Virus record (IMG/VR): IMGVR_UViG_3300025151_000216
Coordinates: 1-28,399 of that record
DNA length: 28,399 bases
Reading direction: 5' to 3' (one strand)
From: a virus
Shown here in pieces: positions 11,801 through 18,192 of this stretch. Below the pieces are notes generated by a model. It saw only the letters and a list, made by a program, of their open reading frames with translations, had not been told where the DNA came from and did not search any database. Each line of letters opens with the position of its first letter. Within the stretch, counting starts at the first letter, position 1. The translations under genes and the position numbers were made by a program.

Positions 11801-11967
11801 ATAGTAGCATCAAAGGGATGATACCCCATGATTCTAATTTTATATCTATTGCCCCAACCACCTTCTCTTTGTTTAGATTGTTTGGTAGAAGGTGCTACTT
11901 GAGCAATAAACCATCTAAAGCCATCACGTCCTACAAAATTACTTTTAAACGCTGCTTCTTCGATCAT
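8875..11967 (-). CDS. gp5: Baseplate central hub protein, gp5-like (1030 aa, no lysozyme domain seen)
   Basis: The N-terminal ~125 residues match the OB-fold domain of T4 gp5/VgrG-type hub proteins (FRWFIAQVAPS, then YKIRIMGYHPFDA, EDLPYAHVLMPPTAGSG, QGDVVFGFFLDGDDGQLPVILG). T4 gp5 has a lysozyme domain next; here I find no T4-lysozyme-like catalytic region. Instead there is an Ala/Gly/Ser-rich helical stretch (~170-300), a long middle region, beta domains (~620-850), and a motif near residues 885-905 (PYYGAYHSHKNGILMTGQ) of the YHxHxxGxxMTG kind. The C-terminus is a Pro/Ser run followed by poly-Gly ending YGGGY. Its ATG overlaps the CP12 stop codon (TAATG). Family usual length is ~575 residues in T4, so this one is greatly enlarged. 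The hub assignment is strong; how the C-terminal domains work is unknown. Confidence 0.85.
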   Translation of the reverse strand: MIEEAAFKSNFVGRDGFRWFIAQVAPSTKQSKQREGGWGNRYKIRIMGYHPFDATITDEDLPYAHVLMPPTAGSGAANTSESCMIRQGDVVFGFFLDGDDGQLPVILGLFGRTPQVKAGEASTEDTQGFKPFTGYTDEIVGTSKMGQEEANDNQGVVNLPAARNPKNSQGGVVDGLLGGNLTDQLESVSGALDSALGAVSGGMAEVSGVSGQVTDVVSNAGGAIRGATQGVLSGSSSVISEAISGAVTSAAAGDLLGAATQALKATEAATGVIAAIGQDAATIANNIKSFASISNANLAQYITQPGGYQNQTSLTAVIPSGNDALDSLISAKNASSMMARNKKSGAPNTDSLANGLRVEPAGGSTAISSIDSAINNTVTKLQTTRGVYDSNIEIARTAEKIIKVIRPMIEIALKGVNDEVTSRTPDGLEKQYKLFYEKKLNALYYQALGITTSGIGQFQGGNTGITTAMKTAAHQAGLDRQLEFEDPIVAFEEAQNDILQTVEDDVTSRMKTHVARTLRFIAESPADVPKCVAENLMVRATVEIGYGLDEACKPYLIPLEPINGLINITDRVWSSESVYEPIEPVDGAPNFGIVLGGGGYTVPVVDKDRVMRVTPIAAGESRDKQLLFQNETPYSADPTYDGGVLGKCYTGPPVCSGLIVEIVGGNATKNATVAPIFERVPTEEEVGQFAAAVGGTGVLAIQVVDPGEGYKKTPKIVVKDHSNQGFGCIAEAKIDFNTGSPTYGQLLRITVKSPGQSYPPNVCPETITNDTPNRVVSIGKEGGYINTINIVNMGSNYKVTDEFNTKALKPVISLGKLVGADILEPVLYDELPNIKLVSDTGKGAKIYPILDNREPVETYGYRRIIDCVGYWSTQGAKIPVGFVNGRPYYGAYHSHKNGILMTGQVHTKFSVIIYTTPDASIANADTIPDASTVAGAASSADQVVLPLQGTEAATTTVDENVLNYGTSLQDAVSSQSGFSADPTTTTTSSSGGTQTTTTQSSPPPSSSPPSSPPPPPPSSGGGGGGYGGGY

Positions 11968-12194
11968 TAGTCGTCATAAACCAAACATTCAGGTTCATCT
12001 GGGTGATTATCACAAAATAGTTCTAAGGCATTTGGGTCATGATGATCTCCTGCTTCAATCTCTTTCTTATGATGTCCAACATACTCCTGTAATTCAAATA
12101 GTTCGTCTTTTGCATGCCTCTTCATGGGTTCAGAAGTTTTTGGATCTTCAATAAGGTCCTTGTCGTGTTGGATGTGTTCTTCTATGCTTTTCAT
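11967..12194 (-). CDS. cp12: CP12-like Calvin-cycle inhibitor (75 aa)
   Basis: The C-terminus (residues 57-75) reads LELFCDNHPDEPECLVYDD. This is the hallmark of CP12: a redox cysteine pair (C61, C70) bracketing a Pro (P65), then ECxVYDD, which inserts into GAPDH. In cyanobacteria CP12 bridges GAPDH and phosphoribulokinase in the dark and stops the Calvin cycle. Phage copies are thought to steer host carbon toward the pentose phosphate pathway and nucleotides. The N-terminal cysteine pair of classical CP12, used for phosphoribulokinase binding, is absent; that half is a charged His/Lys/Glu helix. Length is normal for the family. A strong AGGAGT ribosome site precedes the ATG in the 20-base gap after gp27, and the stop overlaps the gp5 start, so it is embedded in the hub operon. 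Confidence 0.88.
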   Translation of the reverse strand: MKSIEEHIQHDKDLIEDPKTSEPMKRHAKDELFELQEYVGHHKKEIEAGDHHDPNALELFCDNHPDEPECLVYDD

Positions 12195-12214: not shown

Positions 12215-13522
12215 TTATTTTCTACCGTATGAATCTCTCACTAATAACATAGATGTCAGAGAGTCTCTTTGGGTAAATTGATGGCAAAGTTCCTTTATCA
12301 TATATAGTCCACTTGTGTGCTCGTCAAACTCATTTCCCTTTTCAAAACTTTGGTTTTTAAAGAATAACTTAACAATCATACCTACTCTTAAATCAGAGTT
12401 ACATGCGACTGTAACTTGAACTGCTTGAGTCATCAGTAGATTATAACGAGCAATGGATTGTGATTGAACTTTTGCTGGATCTGAATTAACGTCAACTTTG
12501 ACGTCTGGATCCATTGTACCTCGATCTAGTATTCTTGTCATCAGCCTTGTTGGGTAATCTCCAAGACTTTCACTACTACCTGCTTCAATTGGTGGTAGTT
12601 CGGGAGGTTCTCCCATTACTTCCATTTGTTCAGCAAATTCTTTCAATTTATATGTAAACTGGGGAAATTCAAATGTCAGGGGATCAAAGAAAACATTATG
12701 AGATGAAAAGGCACCAGTTCTAAGTTTCTCTAAAATATTTGTATTCTGTTTAAAAGTATAAGACATAATCTTATTTGCTGTATCTTTAACACCAGATTCA
12801 AGAGCACTTTTTTGTACTGTATCTTCTTTATATTCTGCGTATGGTTCTTGTTTGATTAATTCATCTATTGATTTAAAGTAGTGACCATCAAGTGTTTGAT
12901 AGAAAAAATATCCTGCTGTTGAATCTTTTTTACCACTGGCAGGAATTGCTTTGCCAGCTAACCATGTTAGTACAGTAAATGGTTTTCTGAGATTACCAAT
13001 AAATCCATATTGATTTTTACATGAGTCAATGTTATCTTCTGGTAATTCAATTTTTAAAAATTCTTCTGCAATTTGTTTTACAGAAATATCAATTTTTTGA
13101 GTAGTCGGATATTTCTTTGTTACTCTGGAAGTTTCATTTGTAATTGCAGATCTAGACACTAAATTTAATGTAAATATTTCTCTATTACCATCAGTCATAA
13201 TCTCACTAACACCACCAACATAAAGTGGATCTTCAGTCAAATCAATACCATCACCGACAACGGTTTTTACCTTAATTGATACTCTTTCTCCACCAATAAT
13301 AGGTAAACCTTGTAGTAATGCTTTAGTACCACCAACTCCTTTAAAATCTTCGATATCACCACCACCAGAGGATTGAACTAATACTCTAGCGGTTACTGTT
13401 GGAGAAAATACATCTTCAAAGTATTGAAAAGATATGACACCAAATCTAAGGTCTACATCTCTAGAACCATCATTAGACTCGATGATAAACTCTTCATAAT
13501 TTGCTGCTTGATCTGCACTCAT
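12215..13522 (-). CDS. gp27: Baseplate hub protein, gp27-like (435 aa)
   Basis: The length is close to T4 gp27 (391 residues), and the layout suits the hub ring protein that seats the gp5 trimer and joins the tail tube to the baseplate. It opens with a tube-like beta domain (DLRFGVISFQYFEDVFSPTV, LLQGLPIIGGERVSIKVK). It also has a gp27-type insertion with YFFYQTLDGHYFKSIDELI (~205-225), and a C-terminal beta domain with VACNSDLRVGMIVKLFF and a closing TSMLLVRDSYGRK. It sits directly upstream of CP12 and gp5, and the T4 gp27-gp5 complex makes that pairing meaningful. The start is one base after the stop of the upstream hub gene. The call rests on fold-level pattern and position rather than an unmistakable motif. 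Confidence 0.72.
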   Translation of the reverse strand: MSADQAANYEEFIIESNDGSRDVDLRFGVISFQYFEDVFSPTVTARVLVQSSGGGDIEDFKGVGGTKALLQGLPIIGGERVSIKVKTVVGDGIDLTEDPLYVGGVSEIMTDGNREIFTLNLVSRSAITNETSRVTKKYPTTQKIDISVKQIAEEFLKIELPEDNIDSCKNQYGFIGNLRKPFTVLTWLAGKAIPASGKKDSTAGYFFYQTLDGHYFKSIDELIKQEPYAEYKEDTVQKSALESGVKDTANKIMSYTFKQNTNILEKLRTGAFSSHNVFFDPLTFEFPQFTYKLKEFAEQMEVMGEPPELPPIEAGSSESLGDYPTRLMTRILDRGTMDPDVKVDVNSDPAKVQSQSIARYNLLMTQAVQVTVACNSDLRVGMIVKLFFKNQSFEKGNEFDEHTSGLYMIKELCHQFTQRDSLTSMLLVRDSYGRK

Positions 13523-13523
13523 T

Positions 13524-14960
13524 TTATTGGTATGCTAATGCTGTTAATACTCTAGTCCTCTGCATAGTATTTAACAGAGTATCGATATCAGGTGTAGGAA
13601 CTCCTGAACCACCACCTACAACTATTGGTGGACTTGGTGGTGCAGAAGGTACAGACATTGTTGGCACTTGCTGAGACAATACTGCTCGATTAATTTGCCC
13701 TTGCATATCACTCATTGGAGAATCAATATCTTTAGCAGCAGTAATATTATCTACAGTTGTAGACTTAGAAGATGGTGCTGCAGCAACACTTGCTGGTTTT
13801 ATTGGTTCATCTCCTTTGAAAGAAACGTGGATATGATCCATGTGGTCAGCATCATCTTTCCACTTCAGTTCATTGATGCCAAGTTTTTTCTTATTAGCAC
13901 CAAGCATTGAAGCTATTTGATTTAATCTCTCTTCACCTTGACCTGCAATAGGAATATCAAGTGCTTCACCAGAACTATGGAAAGAATTAGAAGCTCTTTT
14001 CATCATACTTTCTAAACCAGAACCAGTAAAACCAGTTTTGATATTGAAGTCTGGGTGCTGCCAAACACCAACACCTTGATCAGTGAGCATCTTACCAACT
14101 GAAACTGCATTTAGATAACCATTAGTTGCCTTAGTTTTTGGTTTACCATCACCCAATTGATTAGCCAATTCAATAACTTTAGGGTCTTTCATTTTTGCTT
14201 CTAATTCTTCTTGACTAACTTGTTTTTTGTAGTCAACCTTAGGTGCTTCTTTCTTTTTTTCTTCTGTTAATTCAGATTCGTCTACAGTATTATTTTTTAC
14301 TTCCTTATCTACGATACCAAATGATTGGGAAACAGTCTTGTCTAAATCCTTTGGATCTTTAAAATCTTGAAACGTTAGTACTTTTAAAACATTAAGGGCA
14401 CTTTCAAAGTATGCACTAAATGAAGTTGTTATATCAGTAAATTCAGAACTAATTTTTTCCATATCTGGAGGAGTCAATGTAAATAAAGACTTGGCTAGTT
14501 CATACACAATTACAGATACACTCTGAAAGAATTGATAAACAAATCCAACTGTTTTTGCTATTCCATCAAAAATTGCTTTAAGTTGTGGTGTAATTGTCTT
14601 TATCATTTCTATCATTTGAGGTATTTTACCTGCTAAGAATCCTGCAAAAATGGATAAGAAACCTTCTACCAATCCATCAAGCATATTACCACCCTTTTTC
14701 TTTACAGCGGAGACAATCATATTATCTTTTGCTTCTTTCTTTTTCTCTACTTTTAGACTGTCAGCTTCATCTGCTTTTCTTTTCTGACCTTTGATCATCG
14801 CTTTTTGATCTTTCAAAAACTTTTGTTTTTTTGCTGTAAAAATTTCTTTTTTACCTAAAAATTTGGCTATAGAAAGAACAGTAGTATCAATACTCTTCAT
14901 AGAAAGAGTTGATCTTTTTAATTTATCTTCGTTAACTTTTGGTAATTCTACTTTTGCCAT
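13524..14960 (-). CDS. Tape-measure/hub-like protein with M15-type zinc peptidase domain (478 aa)
   Basis: Residues 1-90 are a Lys-rich helical region. Residues 93-160 hold a hydrophobic tape-measure-like segment (MLDGLVEGFLSIFAGFLAGK, then further hydrophobic helices), and ~215-260 is an acidic/basic linker. Residues ~255-385 carry a peptidase M15 (D-Ala-D-Ala carboxypeptidase/VanY-like) signature: SFHSSGEALD with H328 and D335, and DHMDHIHVSF with D375, H376 and H378. These are the expected zinc and catalytic positions. The C-terminus is Pro/Ser-rich. It is a tandem partial paralogue of the next upstream gene, sharing the 93-121 segment. Position in the hub operon (where T4 has 27-28-29) suggests a tail-borne wall-cutting tip protein, which would replace the lysozyme missing from gp5. 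The peptidase call is firm on motifs; tail location is inferred. Confidence 0.78.
   Translation of the reverse strand: MAKVELPKVNEDKLKRSTLSMKSIDTTVLSIAKFLGKKEIFTAKKQKFLKDQKAMIKGQKRKADEADSLKVEKKKEAKDNMIVSAVKKKGGNMLDGLVEGFLSIFAGFLAGKIPQMIEMIKTITPQLKAIFDGIAKTVGFVYQFFQSVSVIVYELAKSLFTLTPPDMEKISSEFTDITTSFSAYFESALNVLKVLTFQDFKDPKDLDKTVSQSFGIVDKEVKNNTVDESELTEEKKKEAPKVDYKKQVSQEELEAKMKDPKVIELANQLGDGKPKTKATNGYLNAVSVGKMLTDQGVGVWQHPDFNIKTGFTGSGLESMMKRASNSFHSSGEALDIPIAGQGEERLNQIASMLGANKKKLGINELKWKDDADHMDHIHVSFKGDEPIKPASVAAAPSSKSTTVDNITAAKDIDSPMSDMQGQINRAVLSQQVPTMSVPSAPPSPPIVVGGGSGVPTPDIDTLLNTMQRTRVLTALAYQ
14650..14684. repeat. 35-bp direct repeat shared by the two tape-measure-like paralogues, copy 1
   Basis: This segment matches 15902-15936 at 32 of 35 positions (plus strand begins ATGGATAAGAAACCTTCTA in both). 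It encodes the MLDGLxEGFLSI core in both proteins. The proteins around it have diverged much further. Confidence 0.7.
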
Positions 14961-14970
14961 TTACTTTACC

Positions 14971-16293
14971 TTAGAAGTCTGCCATGCAATTATATTGAAT
15001 CGCAGCAAACATTGGATAGAAATTTTTAGGATTTTTAGATGGAATTGACTTGGAACTATTCCCACCACCTCTTGGACGACTCAAACTACTAGTTTGAGAT
15101 TTTGTAGTAGGCATTACTGTAGGTGTTGCCAAAGGAATAACAAGTGGTGTTGATTCTGGTTTTTGTTGAGCAACTGTTTTATTATTTTTTACTTTAGATG
15201 GTTCTACTTGCGATAACTCGGTCTTGTAGGGTTCAACAATCGCAGCTCCTGATCTAGTGACAGGAACAGCATTATTCATTTGTTCTTGTGTAAAACTCTT
15301 TCCAGTTAAAACCTTGGGTTGTATAACAGGATTCTTTTTATTACCCTTACCCTTCATATCGCCAACTTCATCTGAACTTGATGAGTTATTTAAATTAACA
15401 TCTACCTCAGATTTCTTATCAAATACTTTATCACTAAAATTTTCATTATAAGTCTTTTCTGAACTTTGAATCTCAGCACTACCTTCAGGTTTCTTATATC
15501 CTATAGTTCTTCCACGGGCATTCTTTATTGGTTCACCCTTATACTCTCCTTCTGTTTTGTCACCACCAGTTATCCAGTTCCAACCTTTCTTGAAGACACC
15601 ACCAATCATACCAGGAAGATTAGTTACAAAATTCCATGCCGTTTTCAGTCCTTCAAATATTTTTTCTCCAACTCCAACAATAAAATCTACAAATCCTTTT
15701 ATTCCTTTTCCTAGAAAATCAAAACCACCTTTAAAGAAATCAATAATACCAACAACTATATCTTTGACAAAATTAAATGCTTCCTTGATACCTTCAACAA
15801 TGCTGTTAACAACATCCATCACAGCTTTTGAAACTGTGTCCCATGTTGCTTTAATACCTTCTATTATTTCTGGTAATTTACCAGCGATAAATCCCATCAT
15901 AATGGATAAGAAACCTTCTATCAATCCATCTAACATACCTTTTACATTAGTTACTTTCTTAGCAACATCACCAATGTTCTTGATTCCTCCCATAATAGGA
16001 CTGGCAAATGATTTAGCTTCTGCACTCTTTCTTTCCTGACTTTTTGCTTGTAACGCTGCGTTCTTATCATCTTGTAAATTATCTTCTTGTAATTCTAAAT
16101 CCTTTGTCAGTATTTGAAGTATTGATTTTAAATTTCGATCTATACTTCCTAAAACCTCATCATTAAAACCAGCAACCATGACTTGTTGAGTAACTCCACC
16201 AACTTGATCTGTCTGACTATTTCTTCCCATCATACTTCTAGCAAGAGCACTGCCCTTACTTTCTTGTCTTCTTGGTAGGAATGAATCAGCCAT
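14971..16293 (-). CDS. Tape-measure/hub-like structural protein (440 aa)
   Basis: Residues 1-110 are polar and helical with a coiled-coil character (SILQILTKDLELQEDNLQDD). Residues 120-260 are a chain of hydrophobic, Gly-spaced amphipathic helices (MLDGLIEGFLSIMMGFIAGK, then repeated 'FVKDIVVGIIDFFKGG' and 'GIKGFVDFIVGVG' type units), as in phage tape-measure proteins. The C-terminal half is low-complexity, Lys/Ser/Pro-rich. It follows gp26 and the 57-residue ORF, the position of tape-measure genes after tail chaperones, and its ATG lies inside the end of that ORF (CATGGCTGA). It is shorter than T4 gp29 (590 residues). I consider it a hub/tape-measure relative, without being able to name it as gp29. 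Confidence 0.6.
   Translation of the reverse strand: MADSFLPRRQESKGSALARSMMGRNSQTDQVGGVTQQVMVAGFNDEVLGSIDRNLKSILQILTKDLELQEDNLQDDKNAALQAKSQERKSAEAKSFASPIMGGIKNIGDVAKKVTNVKGMLDGLIEGFLSIMMGFIAGKLPEIIEGIKATWDTVSKAVMDVVNSIVEGIKEAFNFVKDIVVGIIDFFKGGFDFLGKGIKGFVDFIVGVGEKIFEGLKTAWNFVTNLPGMIGGVFKKGWNWITGGDKTEGEYKGEPIKNARGRTIGYKKPEGSAEIQSSEKTYNENFSDKVFDKKSEVDVNLNNSSSSDEVGDMKGKGNKKNPVIQPKVLTGKSFTQEQMNNAVPVTRSGAAIVEPYKTELSQVEPSKVKNNKTVAQQKPESTPLVIPLATPTVMPTTKSQTSSLSRPRGGGNSSKSIPSKNPKNFYPMFAAIQYNCMADF
15902..15936. repeat. 35-bp direct repeat shared by the two tape-measure-like paralogues, copy 2
   Basis: Partner of 14650-14684 (three mismatches). It marks the shared hydrophobic module and suggests duplication of the gene or gene conversion between the two copies. 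Confidence 0.7.
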
Positions 16294-16459
16294 GTTGCTG
16301 TGCTTTTAAGTTTTCCTCTTCGATGTGTTGTTGGAGAAGGGAAACATAAATTTCTCTTTCCCAAGGAATCATATTTTCAAGCTCTGTCAAAGAGTATTTA
16401 TGGTACTGCATCAAGGCAAAATTTAACTTAAAGTATGACACAAGATCCTCTTGTGCCAT
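16286..16459 (-). CDS. 57-residue gp51/'T'-like tail chaperone ORF, probably also made as a -1 frameshift extension of gp26
   Basis: A short ORF between gp26 and the first tape-measure-like gene, beginning MAQEDLVSYFKLNFALMQYH and containing IPWEREIYVSLLQQHIEEE. A Pro-Trp-Glu-Arg block followed by a hydrophobic helix is typical of the second part of phage tail-assembly chaperones. No Shine-Dalgarno precedes its ATG: the upstream bases are the T-run and stop codon of gp26, only two bases away. Its frame is exactly -1 to gp26 and is entered by slippage on the heptamer at 16468-16474, giving a predicted ~297-residue fusion. Independent translation by coupling from the gp26 stop is the alternative. 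Its TGA lies inside the next gene's start (CATGGCTGA). Confidence 0.7.
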   Translation of the reverse strand: MAQEDLVSYFKLNFALMQYHKYSLTELENMIPWEREIYVSLLQQHIEEENLKAQQHG

Positions 16460-16474
16460 TATTATACGAAAAAA
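16437..16474 (-). promoter_or_regulatory. Candidate programmed -1 ribosomal frameshift site (slippery heptamer plus hairpin)
   Basis: Minus strand: T TTT TTC at 16474-16468, in phase with the gp26 codons (TCT TTT TTC GTA TAA). Ten bases later an 8-bp hairpin follows: GGCACAAG at 16457-16450, loop AGGAT, CTTGTGTC at 16444-16437, with one G-U pair. A -1 slip continues as CGT ATA ATA ATG GCA, straight into the 57-codon ORF. Confidence 0.72.
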
Positions 16475-17178
16475 GACGCCAAACCCTCAAGCACCACATT
16501 ATTTTCAACCCCAGTTTTGGGATTCTTAACTGTCATCTTATGTGAAAGTTTAGGCATAGTATCAAAAAACTGTTCTACTTCTTTGAACTGTTTAGTGTTT
16601 AGTTGATCTAGGAATGCTATTCTTTCTTTTTCAGTGTAATCAGATCCTGGCCATGCTTCTTCATCAGTATAAATCTGGTCAATACATCCAGCGATCATTT
16701 TAAATGATGCATCTACATTAGTACCATCAAAATCAAAATTACTCTTAATAAACTGTTCCATTGAAGGATACTTTAACCTTAAGGAGAGGTTTTTATCCAA
16801 TTTAATATCTGTTTTATGATTTTCCTTTCTTTCTACTTTAATATCATCAAGGTTGACTGCGACATCTACTTTTGTTTCCCCGTCATCAGAACAGGTTACA
16901 ACTAAATCTACAACCTCACCGATAGACTTGGCACGAACATTCAAGAAGAGATACTCAATATCAAAGGTAGGTAATTTATCTACCTTAACACCTCTGGTAA
17001 TTATACATGAATTAAGAACGTCAGTAATTGCGTTTGTAATTTGTTTTGTATCTTCAGACTCCATTGCAAGGATAAGGATTTTCTCTTCCTTGACTAAAAA
17101 TGGACGATATTTAATTTTCTTGTCGTTCGATGGCAAATTCAACTCATACGTAGGAGTTGTAATGGTTGGTAACGGCAT
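16462..17178 (-). CDS. gp26: Baseplate hub assembly protein gp26 (T4 baseplate family), candidate tail-assembly chaperone
   Basis: The start region (MPLPTITTPTYELNLPSNDK, then KIKYRPFLVKEEKILILAME) is the characteristic N-terminus of the T4-type gp26 baseplate hub family, and 238 residues is the usual length (T4 gp26 is 208). The middle carries CIITRGVKVDKLPTFDIEYLFLNVRAKSIG, also typical. The family contributes to hub assembly in T4. Here it lies directly upstream of tape-measure-like genes and ends with a slippery T-run, which suits a role as the 'G'-type tape-measure chaperone. A TATAAATT box, one base from the T4 late consensus, lies just before the ATG and a CCTATATAATATA string further upstream. 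A gp51 label cannot be fully excluded, as the two names are sometimes exchanged. Confidence 0.8.
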   Translation of the reverse strand: MPLPTITTPTYELNLPSNDKKIKYRPFLVKEEKILILAMESEDTKQITNAITDVLNSCIITRGVKVDKLPTFDIEYLFLNVRAKSIGEVVDLVVTCSDDGETKVDVAVNLDDIKVERKENHKTDIKLDKNLSLRLKYPSMEQFIKSNFDFDGTNVDASFKMIAGCIDQIYTDEEAWPGSDYTEKERIAFLDQLNTKQFKEVEQFFDTMPKLSHKMTVKNPKTGVENNVVLEGLASFFV

Positions 17179-17208: not shown

Positions 17209-18192
17209 TCAAATAAAACGTTGTCTGACAGAATCAATAGATCCCTGTAAATCTCTAGCATTTCTAGAAATACCTGCAAGACTGTTTGCAGCACTATTGA
17301 TTTTACCTAGAGCTGAGGTTCCACCAAAGGCAGCAGCAGAAGCAATAGCAAGACCACCTAATTGAGGAATAAAGTTACCGAAAGTTCCTTGAGATACAGA
17401 TTTACTATCAATTGCACCACAAACATAACGATCGTATGCTAAACTAACAGTCATTTGAAGAATTTGTGATCCTTCATATGAAACGGGAATAGCAACAATG
17501 TCAAAAGGAAAACATCCAATAAAGTTATATTCTATCTGATACTGATAGTCTCTGTCAAATTTTTTAATTTGTATAGTGTCACATTTGTAACCTTGTTGTG
17601 GATATTTCATTCTTATATAATATCCTGGTCTTGCTTGATCAAAAACTCCATCTCTAGTTTGTGCACCACTAGCAATATATTCCATCCAGTGCTCAAAAAA
17701 CTTTAATGTCTTATATTCTTTATCAACATAGAAAGTAAGATCAATAGGGGCAAATATTCTTGTATGTGCAAAGTTTTCTCTAACACCCATAAAGTTTGTT
17801 ATCTCAGAAACAGGATACTTAGATGTTGGGAGAGAAGCACTACTACACAATAAACCTAGTTCTCTAGTAATAAAATCTGTATCAACTCCCTTATTTCGTA
17901 AGAATCCACTAAGATTAGATAGATTCATAAAACCAGCAAAGGATACTTCATAATGAGAAGTCTGTGCCAGTCTACCAAACTGAGCAATGGTTTCTGACAT
18001 TCCTTTCGCTGTTCCAGGACCTGACCTATTACCAGTATATCCTGCACCACCACCACTTAAAGCGTCAGCGATGTCATTAGCATTGTTGAGAATACCAGAT
18101 ACTTTCTTTATTGCTTTACTATTAGGGAATATGCTTGCTGCTAATCTTCCATATCCAGCAGCAATCTGAGCACCCTTTGCAAGATTTTGCAC
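17209..18192 (-). CDS. gp54: Baseplate tail-tube initiator gp54 (327 aa)
   Basis: The length equals T4 gp54 (320 residues), and the tube-fold core matches the family: HYEVSFAGFMNLSNLSGFL, then LLCSSASLPTSKYP, RIFAPIDLTFYVDKEYK, and a closing strand set YNFIGCFPFDIVAIPVSYEG plus LQMTVSLAYDRYV. T4 gp54 has an equivalent GCIPISV...SYDG...FDVTFAYR. It caps the central baseplate and starts polymerisation of the gp19 tube. The N- and C-termini are helical and Ala/Gly-rich, as in T4. The start is GTG at 18192; the frame is closed upstream by a stop before any ATG, and no clear ribosome site is seen. It diverges from gp4, sharing a 52-base promoter region. Confidence 0.85.
   Translation of the reverse strand: MQNLAKGAQIAAGYGRLAASIFPNSKAIKKVSGILNNANDIADALSGGGAGYTGNRSGPGTAKGMSETIAQFGRLAQTSHYEVSFAGFMNLSNLSGFLRNKGVDTDFITRELGLLCSSASLPTSKYPVSEITNFMGVRENFAHTRIFAPIDLTFYVDKEYKTLKFFEHWMEYIASGAQTRDGVFDQARPGYYIRMKYPQQGYKCDTIQIKKFDRDYQYQIEYNFIGCFPFDIVAIPVSYEGSQILQMTVSLAYDRYVCGAIDSKSVSQGTFGNFIPQLGGLAIASAAAFGGTSALGKINSAANSLAGISRNARDLQGSIDSVRQRFI

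Follow-up and report, generated by a model that had tools for sequence, protein, structure and literature searches.

Comparative evidence for a probable programmed -1 frameshift joining gp26 to a gp51-like domain in an uncultivated cyanophage and its relatives

Organization of the gp26 locus

The sequence analysed is a contig of an uncultivated cyanophage (IMGVR_UViG_3300025151_000216), and the whole stretch of 28,399 nt is referred to as the window; the junction described here is on its minus strand, as are all other features for which coordinates are given. The gp26 gene, proposed below to be the short form of a tail-assembly chaperone (TAC-N), encodes 238 aa (16462..17178) and matched PF12322 T4_baseplate (E=2.4e-76) and phrog_150, annotated as 'baseplate hub' (E=3.2e-82). 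Located directly upstream of it is a tail-tube-like gene (17209..18192; phrog_45 tail tube, E=3e-45; PF23849, E=5e-13). The 3' end of gp26 reads GCG TCT TTT TTC GTA TAA, which contains the slippery heptamer T_TTT_TTC (16468..16474) in the gp26 frame, followed after one codon (GTA) by the TAA stop codon (16462..16464). A previous reading of this DNA, made from the sequence only, had reported a canonical heptamer in phase with gp26 near its stop, and the heptamer was found as described, at 16474-16468.

The segment that would be read in the -1 frame after the heptamer consists of RII plus 57 aa (16286..16468). It is gp51-like, was matched by phrog_634 ('baseplate hub assembly catalyst', E=1.3e-26) and is proposed to be a TAC-C domain. 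The small ORF that can be annotated within it has 57 codons (16286-16459), is in the -1 frame relative to gp26, and also matched phrog_150 in its C-terminal part, which gave an initial hint that fused forms exist. A -1 slip at the heptamer is predicted to yield a fusion of 297 residues (237+3+57; TAC-NC, 16286..17178) reading ...ASFF-RII-MAQEDL..., a product suggested by the geometry of the frames and by its single-ORF counterpart in T4-type gp51. The coordinates and the translation agreed with the earlier statement that the 57-codon ORF is exactly in the -1 frame and would give a fusion of about 297 residues, and the ORF was likewise confirmed to lack its own Shine-Dalgarno sequence, as none was present within about 15 nt. 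Only this 57-codon C-domain ORF, and no full-length long-form gene of the kind found in T4, was located next to gp26 in the window, and an NCBIfam search returned nothing above the curated cut-offs. Among the predicted tryptic peptides, TGVENNVVLEGLASFFR is specific to the fusion and TGVENNVVLEGLASFFV to the short form, and IIMAQEDLVSYFK versus MAQEDLVSYFK would separate the fusion from a product of re-initiation.

Directly downstream is a tape-measure-like gene of 440 aa (14971..16293) that shares 8 bases with the end of the small ORF; many PHROG tape-measure families matched its product weakly (best E=1.3e-8). Several tape-measure-like genes had been expected here; by PHROG matches the 440-aa product was the only one among the downstream genes to bear this out. 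The resulting order of tail tube, gp26, -1 ORF and tape-measure-like gene is the placement of chaperones of the lambda G/GT type.

Conservation of the heptamer and of the frame

The window is AT-rich, and in-phase heptamers of the XXXYYYZ form are no rarity in it: 48 were counted in 8331 main-ORF codons, including 16 with T6 or A6. The heptamer alone therefore means little, and the argument must rest on its conservation. Two protein-pattern scans of viral contigs (IMG/VR) yielded 160 loci and 132 distinct junctions for analysis; no search pattern overlay the heptamer. One locus (L149) was excluded for an early stop in its gp26 frame, and scans seeded with the Ahp1 and KVP40 proteins retrieved nothing or two loci.

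We found that NNT TTT TTC was kept in all 132 distinct junctions: the codons TTT TTC were invariant, the preceding codon always ended in T, and neither the heptamer nor its phase ever varied. Every junction counted had the gp51 domain in the -1 frame at an offset of +5, and the domain was never in another frame. Of the gp26 columns that are conserved and degenerate, 55 in number, only those of the two slippery Phe codons were invariant at the codon level. Elsewhere in gp26, Phe was encoded by TTT 1057 times and by TTC 344 times, and the other conserved Phe columns contained both codons. With 132 of 132 distinct relatives sharing it, the conservation of the heptamer does not fit chance.

Elements flanking the heptamer

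A stem-loop of 11 bp with a 3-nt loop, ATGGCACAAGA-GGA-TCTTGTGTCAT (16435..16459), lies 8 nt past the heptamer and includes the small ORF's ATG, which this proposed 3' stimulator would bury. The earlier reading was right that a hairpin is present downstream, but had described it as 8 bp long and ten bases away. In 124 sequences, the region downstream of the heptamer folded with greater stability than its synonymous shuffles did (mean z -2.3). In the group to which the window belongs, a 13-pair structure was 88% paired with covariation above that of all 500 shuffles (0/500), although these 76 sequences were picked to fit the long stem, a choice that favours it. A set picked without regard to pairing, namely every sequence that encodes Ala at codon 2 (80 in all), showed that base 3 of this Ala codon tracks base 2 of codon 7 (T-A, A-T, G-C). 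When relatedness was allowed for, correlated change at the stem pair amounted to about 5 to 0.3 independent pairs with a median p of 0.06, so the covariation on the tree is suggestive only. In a second clade this place is taken by a different short hairpin, and 19 of 120 sequences failed both core-pair criteria. A single hairpin common to all relatives was ruled out by at least two alternative stems at this position. As comparison among the relatives shows, the heptamer and the stem bear marks of selection. Aligning the junction across relatives was the check suggested along with the earlier reading, and its outcome was favourable: relatives retained the heptamer and the -1 offset, a stem was present in most of them, and the ORF was never in a different frame.

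Upstream of the heptamer, the Shine-Dalgarno-like motif GAGGG (16484..16488) ends at a distance of 9 nt. GAGG or AAGG was present at this site in 132 of 132 relatives; such a 4-nt match is forced by a conserved Glu-Gly. The evidence lies in the choice of codons: the Glu codon at -8 was GAG in 80% of cases versus 28% elsewhere, and GAA at this codon went with GGG (Fisher 1e-9). Pairing with the anti-Shine-Dalgarno sequence was strongest at the element (mean -7.5 kcal/mol, z -1.4 versus synonymous draws). Longer exact Shine-Dalgarno matches were not enriched among the relatives, and the element therefore rests on codon choice and duplex energy, which make an upstream stimulator of this kind probable.

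An upstream Shine-Dalgarno-like element, a slippery heptamer and a 3' stem-loop also make up the frameshift cassette of E. coli dnaX. With its heptamer and a probable upstream element, the junction in the window resembles this cassette and is similar in spacing, including the stem-loop at short distance (11 bp, 8 nt, z -2.3, covariation). E. coli dnaX differs in its heptamer, A_AAA_AAG, and in being an unrelated gene in which the slip gives a shorter product.

Loss of the start codon of the small ORF

The small ORF has an ATG 2 nt past the gp26 stop in 106 of the 132 relatives, the window included. This ATG is missing in 26 of 132, being replaced by CTG, CTA, CTC, CTT or ATT, and some of the relatives without it have an ATG three codons further on. 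In the L049 group there was no start until a TTG at codon 5, and in L068, the L111 group and L139 there was no ATG, GTG or TTG in frame before codon 16. On the gp26 tree, the presence of the ATG changed 12 times, with at least 8 changes forced by well-supported branches, and the heptamer never changed. The same was seen in complete cultured genomes, where no ATG, GTG or TTG occurred before codon 16 in ACG-2014b, S-MbCM6 and HTVC008M and no start occurred before codon 15 in ACG-2014d; for Aeromonas 65 and C48C1, none of the three codons was present within the 18 codons scanned. Since some complete cultured genomes have no start codon before the conserved domain, the fusion would be the only plausible product there.

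In the records examined, gp26 and gp51 were annotated as two genes, either as hub proteins or as hypothetical, or the second one was omitted. The annotations of ACG-2014b, ACG-2014d, S-MbCM6 and S-WAM2 have a gap at the C-domain; in deposited cyanophage genomes this domain was left out of the annotation, apparently for want of an ATG.

Distribution among phages and relationship to T4 gp26 and gp51

TTTTTTC with the domain in the -1 frame was also found in KVP40, Aeromonas 65, Ahp1, LPCS28 and BUCT608, and the same layout was found with TTTTTTG in RHph_Y68 and with TTTTTTT in HTVC008M and C48C1. The Ackermannviridae Det7, JA15 and Kuja (L169, L173 and L192) keep the -1 frame with a shorter T run and have no clean XXXYYYZ site.

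In searches against five sequences, the gp26 profile matched T4 gp26 (E=3e-28) and the profile of the -1 domain matched the C-terminus of T4 gp51, residues 207-245 (E=1e-7). The fusion was also matched by gp51 of Aeromonas phage ZHF, as one continuous stretch (residues 13-290). On the evidence of these matches, T4-type gp51 is the same fusion encoded as a single ORF. Whereas gp26 and the -1 domain of the window resemble T4 gp26 and the C-terminus of T4 gp51, respectively, T4 has gp26 and gp51 as separate genes on opposite strands, with gp51 as an in-frame fusion and no frameshift.

The predicted structure of gp26 was of good quality (pLDDT 85). A fold search of the PDB with this model returned tail chaperones among the matches, none of them significant (2ob9, E=0.8; 3klu, E=3.4; HK97, YqbN), and no solved tail-chaperone relative emerged when the PDB was searched by sequence with the profile of gp26, the top matches being designed helical proteins. 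From its position and its likeness to T4 gp26 and gp51, the gene pair most likely encodes tail-assembly chaperones TAC-N and TAC-NC of the lambda G/GT type. A T4 review (PMC3004832) counts gp26 and gp51 among the hub assembly chaperones, with gp51 absent from the particle, and notes genetic evidence for a possible presence of gp26 in the hub. The proposal that gp26 is better seen as a chaperone than as a part of the hub is in agreement with this review, despite the genetic evidence noted there.

Proposed mechanism and alternative explanations

The frameshift proposed from the sequence at the junction of gp26 and the 57-codon ORF is supported by the comparisons above, and the sequence-based tests that were run with a view to refuting it did not do so. 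A programmed -1 ribosomal frameshift very probably makes two tail-assembly chaperones from one gene at this locus. Most ribosomes would stop at the TAA and yield gp26 (TAC-N, 238 aa), and a minority would slip back one base on U_UUU_UUC into the -1 frame and yield the 297-aa TAC-NC with its gp51-like C-terminal domain. The 11-bp stem 8 nt past the heptamer probably stimulates the slip, and GAGGG 9 nt upstream may assist it in the manner of dnaX. Because the ATG lies within the stem, the stem should in addition keep the C-domain from being translated separately. If lambda G/GT is a guide, the tape-measure protein would be coated by gp26, and tail-tube subunits would be brought in by the fused domain. 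We infer the slippage and its efficiency, the roles of the stem and the upstream element, and the chaperone function.

The locus could also encode two separate proteins, with gp51 made by termination-reinitiation at TAATAATG and no frameshift. The ATG lying 2 nt beyond the gp26 stop in most relatives and the two genes annotated in public records are in line with this, but 26 of 132 relatives lack the ATG, which underwent at least 8 changes on the tree against a constant heptamer and lies inside a conserved stem, and in several genomes the domain is preceded by no usable start. Coupling would moreover leave the invariant TTT TTC codons unexplained, and we consider separate proteins very unlikely. 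It is also unlikely, though less sharply so, that both products are made, with some free C-domain arising by re-initiation alongside the frameshift fusion where the ATG is kept. Most members do retain the ATG, and its place 2 nt past the gp26 stop in the window allows some re-initiation, but it has no upstream Shine-Dalgarno sequence, is buried in the stem, and its retention is labile on the tree.

Transcriptional rather than ribosomal slippage, acting on the T6 tract, could yield the fusion as well, and all 132 relatives carry six consecutive T, with longer runs in C48C1 and HTVC008M. Six T are short for polymerase slippage, however, and the run was not lengthened in the 132 relatives; the phase, the downstream stem and the upstream element suit a ribosomal event, which leaves the transcriptional route highly improbable. 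It is scarcely credible that the conservation stems from a constraint on protein or DNA that has nothing to do with frameshifting: gp26 does have a conserved Phe-Phe at its C-terminus, but TTT and TTC are mixed at other conserved Phe columns, the -1 domain is conserved as a protein even without a start codon, and T4-type gp51 carries the domain fused.

For the programmed ribosomal frameshift, we tentatively suggest that the stem has a dual role, both stimulating the slip and burying the start of the C-domain, so that the domain would be made essentially only in fused form; several lineages have lost the start codon and kept the heptamer, which would leave them the fusion as the sole product. 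We found no earlier report of such a dual role, with Vladimirov et al. 2022 represented by the papers that cite it.

Comparison with known frameshifted chaperones

Vladimirov, Gautam & Davidson (2022, Virology 566:9-15) are said to have described frameshifting as conserved in several T4-like groups, with T4 using genes 26 and 51. According to the papers that cite this work, some T4-like phages do not frameshift but have one gene each for the short and the long form (PMC10274946), and poly-T slip sites are present in TAC-N genes of T4-like phages (PMC12846349). As far as these citing papers describe them, the T4-like chaperones share with the window the gp26/gp51 family, the short/long scheme and the poly-T slip site in TAC-N. 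The sequence-only reading had been aware of no frameshifted chaperone described for T4-type gp26/gp51, a view that these reports of chaperones and slip sites overturn. By their account the mechanism is already known for T4-like phages, and the contig is a further member. The comparative data strongly support the mechanism already proposed for these phages, and, relative to earlier work as seen through its citing papers, they add the loss of the start codon, the stem that buries it and the upstream element. Reading gp26 and gp51 as one frameshifted chaperone pair gives them a testable function in the tail building of abundant ocean phages.

In lambda G/GT (Xu, Hendrix & Duda 2004; reviewed in PMC5009743), a -1 slip likewise occurs close to where a chaperone gene ends, and this gene is located between the tail-tube and tape-measure genes. 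In contrast to that system, no homology of gp26 to a solved tail chaperone was detectable by sequence, and the downstream segment of the window is short, often having its own ATG in relatives. A conserved -1 poly-T slip upstream of the tape-measure gene is likewise present in Vandenendeviridae and Andersonviridae (Pseudomonas phage Adele, PMC12846349), but the motif there is GTTTTT and the phage families are different.

Other features of the tail gene cluster

A second in-phase TTTTTTC was found at codon 205 of the phrog_350 tail gene (12215-13522), far from its 3' end, and is probably there by chance. The 478-aa product encoded at 13524-14960 had a weak endolysin PHROG match (phrog_894, E 0.002, residues 316-394) and possibly contains a peptidase domain within a tail protein. 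A CP12-like gene (PF02672, E 3e-13; 11967-12194), a photosynthesis-regulating host gene, is located inside the tail gene cluster, with the gene of tail protein family phrog_350 on one side and a hub/tail-lysozyme-like gene on the other.
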